DNA of 64,000 nucleotides. Source: Pseudomonadota bacterium (GTDB lineage Bacteria > Pseudomonadota > Alphaproteobacteria > Rhodospirillales > Magnetospirillaceae). A program made the position numbers and the translations under genes. Below are positions 5,206-62,185 of this stretch, in pieces (position 1 is the stretch's first letter; every line of letters starts with the position of its first letter). The notes under the pieces were generated by a model. That model was not told the DNA's origin and did not search any database. It saw nothing but the letters and a program-made list of their open reading frames with translations. Location: NCBI GenBank assembly GCA_021782815.1, contig JAJXUO010000002.1:1-64000 (forward strand), given 5' to 3'.

Positions 5206-5408
5206 TTATACCAAGTCGCGATGAGTTTGACTCATCGCGACGCCGGTTAGGAGCAAGGCGACGCGCGCCTGATGGCGCGGTGAGGCAAAGCGCGCCATCA
5301 GGCGCGACGCCAAAGCGCGCCATCAGGCACGACGCCAAGGGTTTCGGAGAAACCCGCCCGGCTTATGAGGGGGCAGAGATCGGTTCCGATCACTGCAATT
5401 TGGTATTA
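5206..5408 (+). repeat. MITE-like dispersed repeat, copy 1 (203 bp)
   Basis: The element runs from TTATACCAAGTCGCGATGAG to the inverted right end TTGCAGTGATC/TTGGTATTA. Its ends are imperfect terminal inverted repeats (TTATACCAAGTCGC and TAATACCAAATTGC on opposite strands). Near the left end is a 12-bp perfect hairpin GTCGCGATGAGT-TTG-ACTCATCGCGAC. The middle holds repeated GGCGTCG.GCCTGATGGCGCGC modules. A second copy, in inverted orientation and lacking about 52 internal bases, lies at 61667-61817. There is no ORF of its own. The right end overlaps the stop codon of the glycosyltransferase gene (5406-5408). Confidence 0.85.
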
Positions 5409-47920: not shown

Positions 47921-48358
47921 TCACGCCTGGCGCAGATGCTCGACGTACTGGCGGTCGTGGCGCTGGATATGATCGAACAGCCAGGCGCGCAGAAAGCTCA
48001 AAACCTCGCGGCTGAGCCCTTGCGGCGCTTCGCCGCGGGCCTGCCGGGCGATGGCCTGCAAACGGGCGTACAACTGATCGTGTTCCCGCTTGTGCCGCTC
48101 CCAGTCGGGATAGCCCGACACCGTCAGCAGGGCGATCTCGCGGTCGAAATGAATTTCGGTGTAGCGGAACAGTTCGTCGAGGATCAGGCTCACATGCTCG
48201 TCGCCGAAGCCGGCGTAGCAGGCCACCAGGGTGCTGTTCAAAAGATCCACCAGGATCTTATGATCCTCGTCCAGCGAGGGAATGCCGACGCTGAGATCGT
48301 TGCTCCAGCGGATGATGATCTCGTCGGGCGGCGGGGCGTTGAGCGACATGTTCAACAT
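47921..48358 (-). CDS. Bacteriohemerythrin
   Basis: A 145-residue single-domain hemerythrin that binds O2 at a diiron site. All canonical ligands are present: H33 (DEDHKIL), H70 and E74 (EIHFDREIA), H89 and H93 (ERHKREH), H130 and D135 (DHIQRHD). It opens IIRWSNDLSVGIPSLDEDHK. Stand-alone bacteriohemerythrins deliver or sense oxygen and are common in microaerobic spirilla. Its ATG overlaps the stop of the small gene upstream (TGATG), so the two are translationally coupled. An alternative start is ATG 48349. Confidence 0.95.
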   Translation of the reverse strand: MLNMSLNAPPPDEIIIRWSNDLSVGIPSLDEDHKILVDLLNSTLVACYAGFGDEHVSLILDELFRYTEIHFDREIALLTVSGYPDWERHKREHDQLYARLQAIARQARGEAPQGLSREVLSFLRAWLFDHIQRHDRQYVEHLRQA

Positions 48359-48555
48359 CAGGCGGCGTCCAGGCGCAGGCTTTCCACCGAACTGCGGGCG
48401 GCGGCATCCTCGACACCGGTCATGGAGGACAGAAACATGGCGGCGGCGGTCACCCCCTCGCGGTGGGCCACCGCCTGCGGCTGCCCCTGGGCCAGGGCTT
48501 CGGCCACGGTTTCGTCATAGGCTTCGGCGATCATCTTGCGCATGGTGCTGTCCAC
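48358..48555 (-). CDS. 65-residue protein coupled to bacteriohemerythrin
   Basis: From GTG 48555, which has GGGAGG 8 bases upstream (ATG 48543 would give 61 residues), the product begins MDSTMRKMIAEAYDETVAEA and continues through ALAQGQPQAVAHREGVTAAA to a helical C-terminus with SSMTGVEDAAARSSVESL. It is helical, soluble and without Cys. Its TGA overlaps the hemerythrin ATG (TGATG). The family is not recognised; the coupling suggests a role in the same oxygen-related function, perhaps as a partner protein. Codon use is strongly GC3-biased, supporting a real gene. Confidence 0.6.
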   Translation of the reverse strand: MDSTMRKMIAEAYDETVAEALAQGQPQAVAHREGVTAAAMFLSSMTGVEDAAARSSVESLRLDAA

Positions 48556-48696
48556 GGTGTTGTCCTCCCGGTTCGGGTCCCGAGCCGGGAAAAGCAACCG
48601 TCGTGCCAAAGACGCCGCCTCAAAAAACACCGAAAGCCGGTGGTGGCGGAGCGGAAAGCCCGCCGGATATCGCAAACTGCGACTGCAGAATGCGAA

Positions 48697-61645: not shown

Positions 61646-61666
61646 CACCCTCGCACTCTTCGCAAA

Positions 61667-61817
61667 TAATACCTAGTTGCGGTGATCGGAACCGATCACC
61701 GCACCCTCATGCGCCGGGCGGGTTTCTCCGAAACCCTTGGCGTCGTGCCTGATGGCGCGCGTCGCCTTGCTCCTAACCGGCGTCGCGATGAGTCAAACTC
61801 ATCGCGACTTGGTATAA
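61667..61817 (-). repeat. MITE-like dispersed repeat, copy 2 (151 bp)
   Basis: The inverted counterpart of 5206-5408: read on the minus strand it begins TTATACCAAGTCGCGATGAG and ends CCTAGTTGCGG...TAATACC-type inverted end. It lacks about 52 bases of the internal GCCTGATGGCGC modules of copy 1. Two hairpins are conserved: GTCGCGATGAGT / ACTCATCGCGAC and GGTGATCGG / CCGATCACC. It lies between pyrD (22 bases away) and the sigma-54 unit. Confidence 0.85.
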
Positions 61818-61892
61818 CGCGGCTGGGAGAACCCGGGGCGGACCCTACCTGAAAGCACGGAGAAAGAACAGGACGGGATCGACACAGCCGCG

Positions 61893-61935
61893 TCGCGGAA
61901 TGCGATGGCGGCGGCGGCGCCTCTCGCATTCCGCG
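61893..61935 (+). promoter_or_regulatory. Dyad upstream of the sigma-54 promoter (possible enhancer site)
   Basis: TCGCGGAATGCGA (61893-61905) and its exact reverse complement TCGCATTCCGCGA (61923-61935) are perfect 13-bp inverted repeats. Each half is itself a TCGC-N5-GCGA dyad, and their centres are 30 bp apart, about three helical turns. This is the arrangement of paired sites for a bacterial enhancer-binding protein, about 45 bp before the -24 element. Confidence 0.6.
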
Positions 61936-61975
61936 AGAAAATCGGCCGAATCCACCCTGAAACCATACCCGGGGA

Positions 61976-61991
61976 TTGGCACATCCCTTGC
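61976..61991 (+). promoter_or_regulatory. Sigma-54 promoter
   Basis: TTGGCAC (61976-61982), five bases, TTGC (61988-61991): the -24 GG (61978-61979) and -12 GC (61990-61991) are exactly 12 bases apart, matching the RpoN consensus TGGCAC-N5-TTGC. Transcription would begin near 62003, 30 bases before the 49-residue gene. Confidence 0.75.
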
Positions 61992-62032
61992 GAGAGGGAC
62001 CACAGAATCACCTTCACATCCGGGAGGCCGCC

Positions 62033-62182
62033 ATGCTGCCCTTGATCTTCCGTTTCAGCCCCGCCTTCCTCAAAGCCCTGGCCCTGGTGGAGGCCCTGCC
62101 CGCCGCGCCGTCCGAAAAACCGGCCCGCAAGCAAAAGCCCGCCGCCGGTCGGCCGCGCAAGACGGCCCGGACCACGGGATAG
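62033..62182 (+). CDS. 49-residue protein under a sigma-54 promoter
   Basis: ATG 62033 has GGGAGG 5 bases upstream. The product begins MLPLIFRFSPAFLKALALVE, a hydrophobic, amphipathic-looking helix, continues through ALPAAPSEKPARKQKP and ends in a Lys/Arg/Pro-rich basic tail with AAGRPRKTARTTG. No known family is recognised; the short hydrophobic helix plus basic tail could contact membrane, nucleic acid or a partner protein. Codon third positions are strongly GC-biased, like real genes. The gene stops 3 bases before the convergent ABC ATPase stop, with no terminator between them. Confidence 0.6.
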   Translation: MLPLIFRFSPAFLKALALVEALPAAPSEKPARKQKPAAGRPRKTARTTG

Positions 62183-62185
62183 GGC

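Follow-up and report, generated by a model that had tools for sequence, protein, structure and literature searches.

The question raised by positions 61893 to 62182 of the 64,000-nucleotide stretch analysed here (the window) is what controls a 49-codon open reading frame, orf49, which lies between two minus-strand genes, pyrD and one for a NitT/TauT-type ABC ATPase with an AAA_assoc_C domain. The frame is preceded by a sigma-54 promoter (TTGGCACATCCCTTGC, 61976..61991, plus strand, predicted start near 62003) reading TTGGCAC-N5-TTGC, with GG at -24, GC at -12, 10 bp between them and the correct GG-to-GC spacing of 12 bp. Its counterpart in a sister species (G001), the only other genome of the genus compared, so that conservation as reported here spans two species, is TGGGCACGCCCCTTGC, and the perfectly spaced -24/-12 promoter claimed in an earlier, sequence-only reading is in this way confirmed. 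The exact RpoN consensus TGGCAC-N5-TTGC, which was used as the test for such promoters, occurs at two sites in the window, 61977 on the plus strand and 48594 on the minus strand, and at 14 sites genome-wide as compared to 3 for a reversed control pattern. Exact promoters precede nifH, fixA-type, alr and dctA-type transporter genes and others (names assigned by reading translations), NifA-type TGT-N10-ACA sites are found at the nifH and fixA-type promoters as expected, and RpoN is presumably active in this genome. Downstream of the orf49 promoter the ribosome-binding site that had been claimed, GGGAGG (62022..62027, plus strand, read from the sequence), is present, and it is also found in G001 as AGGAGG.

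Upstream of the promoter stand two putative 13-bp enhancer boxes of LuxO type, box 1 (TCGCGGAATGCGA, 61893..61905, plus strand) centred at about -104 and box 2 (TCGCATTCCGCGA on the plus strand; 61924..61936, minus strand) centred at about -73 from the predicted start. Separated by 18 nt, the arms are 100% complementary, box 1 being an exact inverse of box 2, and each single arm is near-palindromic. Of the inverted half-sites described from the letters alone the perfect complementarity stood, whereas the distance, given as 30 bp, measures 31 bp from centre to centre. A comparison with relatives had been suggested, and in G001 the reading frame, the -24/-12 elements, the dyad and the ribosome-binding site have all been kept against a background of divergence in the dyad spacer and in the bulk of the intergenic DNA; 25 of the 26 arm bases are identical (12/13 in box 1, 13/13 in box 2) at an unchanged spacing of 31 bp, and the neighbouring genes are 92% (pyrD) and 96% (ABC) identical. 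The dyad pair is the sole exact copy of its 13-mer in the genome. Measured against the palindrome TTGCA-N3-TGCAA the orf49 boxes (TCGCATTCCGCGA) are degenerate, the second half-site being CGCGA and not TGCGA or TGCAA, and they are the weakest among the regulon set. A motif trained without orf49 placed box 2 at rank 4 and box 1 at rank 5 of about 64,000 window positions, ranks 1 and 2 both lying at a second promoter at 48.6 kb.

Another claim had been that the locus is a regulon of a single gene. While the exact 13-mer is unique, the motif recurs at no fewer than four other sigma-54 promoters, one of them inside the window, so that the single-gene regulon was rejected and orf49 is placed in a probable small LuxO-type regulon instead of being a one-gene switch. 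The proposal that enhancer-protein sites lie upstream of the RpoN promoter is supported. The promoter inside the window (TGGCACGACGGTTGC, 48594..48608, minus strand; TGGCATGGCGGTTGC in G001) is assigned to the same inferred regulon. Upstream of it lies a block TTCGCATTCTGCAGTCGCAGTTTGCGA which is conserved in G001 despite differing surroundings, with two adjoining boxes, TCGCAAACTGCGA / TCGCAGTTTGCGA (48670..48682, the first-ranked site, with one base different in G001) and CTGCAGAATGCGA / TCGCATTCTGCAG (48683..48695, the second-ranked, identical in G001). Behind it follow, on the minus strand, a gene for a 65-aa small protein (MDSTMRKM..., 48358..48555) with a paralogue on contig C24 and, next, a gene for a hemerythrin-domain protein (47921..48358; PF01814, E 1.5e-14). 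The paralogous small-protein operon on C24 has, in both species, the box TTGCATTTTGCAA, an exact match to the published LuxO consensus TTGCAWWWTGCAA, i.e. TTGCAW3TGCAA (PMC10162802, PMC11443567), a second box TCGCAGGGTGCGA which reads TTGCAGGGTGCAA in G001, a symmetric two-sided change, and a sigma-54 promoter TGGCATGGC[AG]TTTGC. In this operon (L184, 1296-1695) canonical LuxO boxes precede the genes for two small proteins, of 62 and 65 aa. Members of the 65-aa family are also found in other genera across the order, with no recognisable sigma-54 promoter there. On contig C22 a gene for a HAMP-domain, CxxCH-containing, chemoreceptor-like protein carries the box TTGCAGAACGCAA (TTGCAGAATGCAA in G001), and a scan of both genomes with YYGCRGAAYGCR yielded orf49, the 48.6-kb operon and this C22 gene as the strong-promoter matches common to both.

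A genome scan for TYGCA-N3-TGCRA returned only five sites, and none for the reversed control. Four of the five are upstream of a TGGCAY-N5-TTGC promoter, including a new unit on contig C9 before a 55-aa ORF, and the boxes of the C24 and C9 units fit the published consensus exactly or almost exactly. The fifth site (C13:117512, L260) is a canonical box without a recognisable sigma-54 promoter, located between glutamate-dehydrogenase-like and Hsp70-like genes and partly conserved in G001 (C232:2160, L265). The spacing of the boxes varies among the units, being 31, 13 or 19 bp, or the box is single. The chance of finding box and promoter together at three of four independent loci was calculated as about 1e-9 to 1e-7, depending on the promoter number assumed, and as about 1e-6 to 3e-5 when the 48.6-kb locus is left out, which is the fairer figure because the motif was partly defined on these loci. 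A paired TCGC-N5-GCGA pattern was also tried on 99 genomes and discarded, the matches being mostly coding noise.

Of the 13 full-length sigma-54 activators encoded in the genome, exactly one is LuxO-like. Its gene is truncated at the end of contig C112 and complete in G001, where the protein scores 633.4 bits with the NCBIfam LuxO model (NF041946), the next family reaching 404. As this is the best family by far and the score is yet below the curated cut-off of 800 bits for the equivalog, the protein is named LuxO-like and not LuxO. Its domains are a receiver, a sigma-54 AAA+ module and an HTH_8 carrying the LuxO recognition helix, and its best solved relative in the PDB is LuxO 5ep0. The helix-turn-helix (GNIPKAAALLGISPSTIYRKKI, from G001) is identical to that of V. 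cholerae LuxO at 15 of 22 positions and keeps nine of the eleven residues at which a change to alanine abolishes DNA binding of LuxO (PMC11407668); the twelve other activators share at most 10/22 positions and at most 7/11 of the critical residues. With a probability of roughly 0.7, a LuxO-like response regulator would, together with RpoN, control orf49 as one of its targets, and this candidate activator would be encoded elsewhere in the genome and not be private to orf49. The boxes might instead be RpoN enhancer sites of one of the other activators encoded in the genome, for example an NtrX-, HupR- or unassigned NtrC-family protein, with a merely coincidental resemblance to LuxO sites. While the NtrX and DctD helix-turn-helix regions keep 7/11 of the critical residues and the orf49 boxes depart from the Vibrio consensus, this is unlikely in view of the fit of the C24 and C9 boxes to that consensus, the LuxO-like helix-turn-helix being the closest by far, and the other, recognisable upstream sites carried by the dctA-, nifH- and alr-type promoters. 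In addition, in another family of the order (G064) the boxes TTGCAAAATGCGA and GTGCATTTTGCAA and the promoter TGGCACGGCGGTTGC adjoin the luxO-like gene. Among 61 genomes the combined -24/-12 and box pattern was not enriched in those with luxO-like genes.

The locus in G064 (L221, 1062-1395) has its paired boxes and a perfect sigma-54 promoter on the 3' side of the luxO-like gene. This promoter drives about 190 nt with a strong fold (z -3.3), without a convincing ORF and without an Rfam match, and the transcript is a candidate Qrr-like small RNA in an alphaproteobacterium.

The target of the orf49 promoter itself (62033..62182, plus strand) reads as a 49-residue protein MLPLIFRFSPAFLKALALVEALPAAPSEKPARKQKPAAGRPRKTARTTG with a short hydrophobic helix and a basic tail, and its orthologue in G001 is 80% identical. 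GC by codon position is 0.67/0.59/0.86, in agreement with the GC3 bias reported for the 49 codons beforehand. The changes relative to G001 are distributed 5/4/13 over the codon positions, 13 of 22 falling on third positions, and yield a dN of 0.115, a dS of 0.404 and a dN/dS of about 0.29 (NG86), with lower values over the first 25 codons (dN 0.037, dN/dS 0.16). The purifying selection and the retained start and frame, as seen with this one relative, mark orf49 as protein-coding; the terminal few codons and the stop differ between the two species. As the targets of LuxO in Vibrio are Qrr small RNAs (PMC11443567), the sigma-54 transcript could also be such an RNA, or an antisense transcript to the convergent ABC-ATPase gene, the stop of which is only 3 bases away from that of orf49 so that read-through would be antisense, and the reading frame could be incidental. 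The selection on the frame and the ribosome-binding site in both species make this quite improbable, as do the ordinary fold of the orf49 transcript (z -0.56) and the lack of an Rfam match; no Qrr match was found in the window. That the 13-bp arms form an RNA hairpin, a terminator or attenuator stopping for instance read-through of the minus-strand ABC transporter operon, was rejected as highly improbable, for although a good fold is predicted for the 61-nt stretch (-33.9 kcal/mol, z -2.8) and the G001 change leaves a G-U pair on the plus strand, no T-run follows either arm, no terminator was called there, the same words recur without a hairpin at other sigma-54 promoters, the arm sequence itself is conserved beyond pairing, and the arms at 61893-61936, lying upstream of both divergent starts, are transcribed from neither promoter.

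The orf49 protein has no family match in Pfam or NCBIfam. Structure prediction suggested a helix from residue 10 to 21 at low confidence (pLDDT 64), and the C-terminal part is a basic Pro/Lys/Arg tail; as a guess of low confidence, the product may be a membrane-associating cationic peptide acting via hydrophobic helix and tail. Beyond the genus no convincing homologue was found in 97 relatives, the best other match having an E of 0.0125 and none of the matches retrieved outside G001 adjoining pyrD or the orthologous ABC gene, nor did a search of 84,980 species, or of plasmids and viral contigs, reveal one. The protein is known from two species of one genus only. In genus g12 the pyrD and ABC neighbours persist, but another ORF, presumably DUF952-like (L089-L092), intervenes in place of orf49. 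A conserved word CTTTCAGGTAGGGTCC (61840..61855, read on the minus strand), upstream of pyrD and divergent from orf49, is also found upstream of the intervening gene in g12, and comparison of window positions 61650-62185 with the g12 loci suggests that it is likely what remains of the promoter of a DUF952-like gene since lost.

Two further repeats were observed in the window. A perfect hairpin GTCGCGATGAGT-N3-ACTCATCGCGAC occurs twice, at 61782-61808 and 5215-5241, and, with a similar element near the luxO-like gene (L219), represents a dispersed repeat. A perfect 12-bp inverted repeat TGCGGTGATCGG-N2-CCGATCACCGCA is located at 61678-61703, just upstream of pyrD.

With a LuxO-like regulator as the activator, the following sequence of events may be proposed. 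In response to a signal the phosphorylated LuxO-like protein would bind both boxes (TYGCR-N3-YGCRA, at about -104 and -73), its dimers lying on one face of the DNA since the boxes are 31 bp, or three turns, apart. The bound protein would then oligomerise and loop to the RNA polymerase-sigma-54 complex at 61976-61991. Looping is established for this family of sigma-54 activators. Hydrolysis of ATP would open the orf49 promoter, transcription would begin near 62003 and the 49-residue protein would be made, and the same regulator would activate at least four more sigma-54 units, namely those at 48.6 kb and on C24, C9 and C22. It is conceivable, if rather doubtful, that the LuxO-type phosphorelay of this genus acts via small proteins, namely orf49 and three or more others, instead of Qrr small RNAs and is tied to oxygen/redox sensing through the hemerythrin and the CxxCH chemoreceptor-like protein. 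LuxO-sigma-54 control is known as a quorum circuit of the Vibrionaceae which produces small RNAs; if the reading is true, an alphaproteobacterial LuxO-like regulon of small-protein genes would show this wiring to be older and more flexible. Co-regulation and a named regulator would also give a first functional handle on several unannotated small proteins.

Compared with known systems, the proposed regulon shares the sigma factor and promoter architecture with the NifA-, DctD- and NtrC-type RpoN regulons of Alphaproteobacteria, all of which are present in this genome, and differs from them in the upstream sites, which for NifA, for example, are TGT-N10-ACA at nifH and fixA-type promoters. SypG of Vibrio fischeri is a LuxO relative with overlapping boxes which activates protein-coding syp promoters, although its reported motif TTCTCANNNTGMDWN differs from the boxes found here, as do its targets (PMC10162802). 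In contrast to the LuxO-sigma-54/qrr system of the Vibrionaceae, which operates at low cell density, the host is an alphaproteobacterium, the targets found are protein-coding (small proteins, hemerythrin, chemoreceptor-like protein) and not Qrr small RNAs, the boxes drift to TCGCA/TGCGA, and the regulator scores under the cut-off of curated LuxO. The proposed regulon has in common with that system an RpoN promoter, 13-bp palindromic boxes of the TTGCA-N3-TGCAA kind, degenerate at orf49, often paired and about 70-140 bp upstream, and an activator that combines a receiver, an AAA+ domain and a Fis-type HTH, the recognition helix being nearly identical. The paired LuxO boxes of V. fluvialis qrr1 at -119 and -89 (PMC10162802, PMC11443567) are near the positions of the orf49 box centres at -104 and -73.
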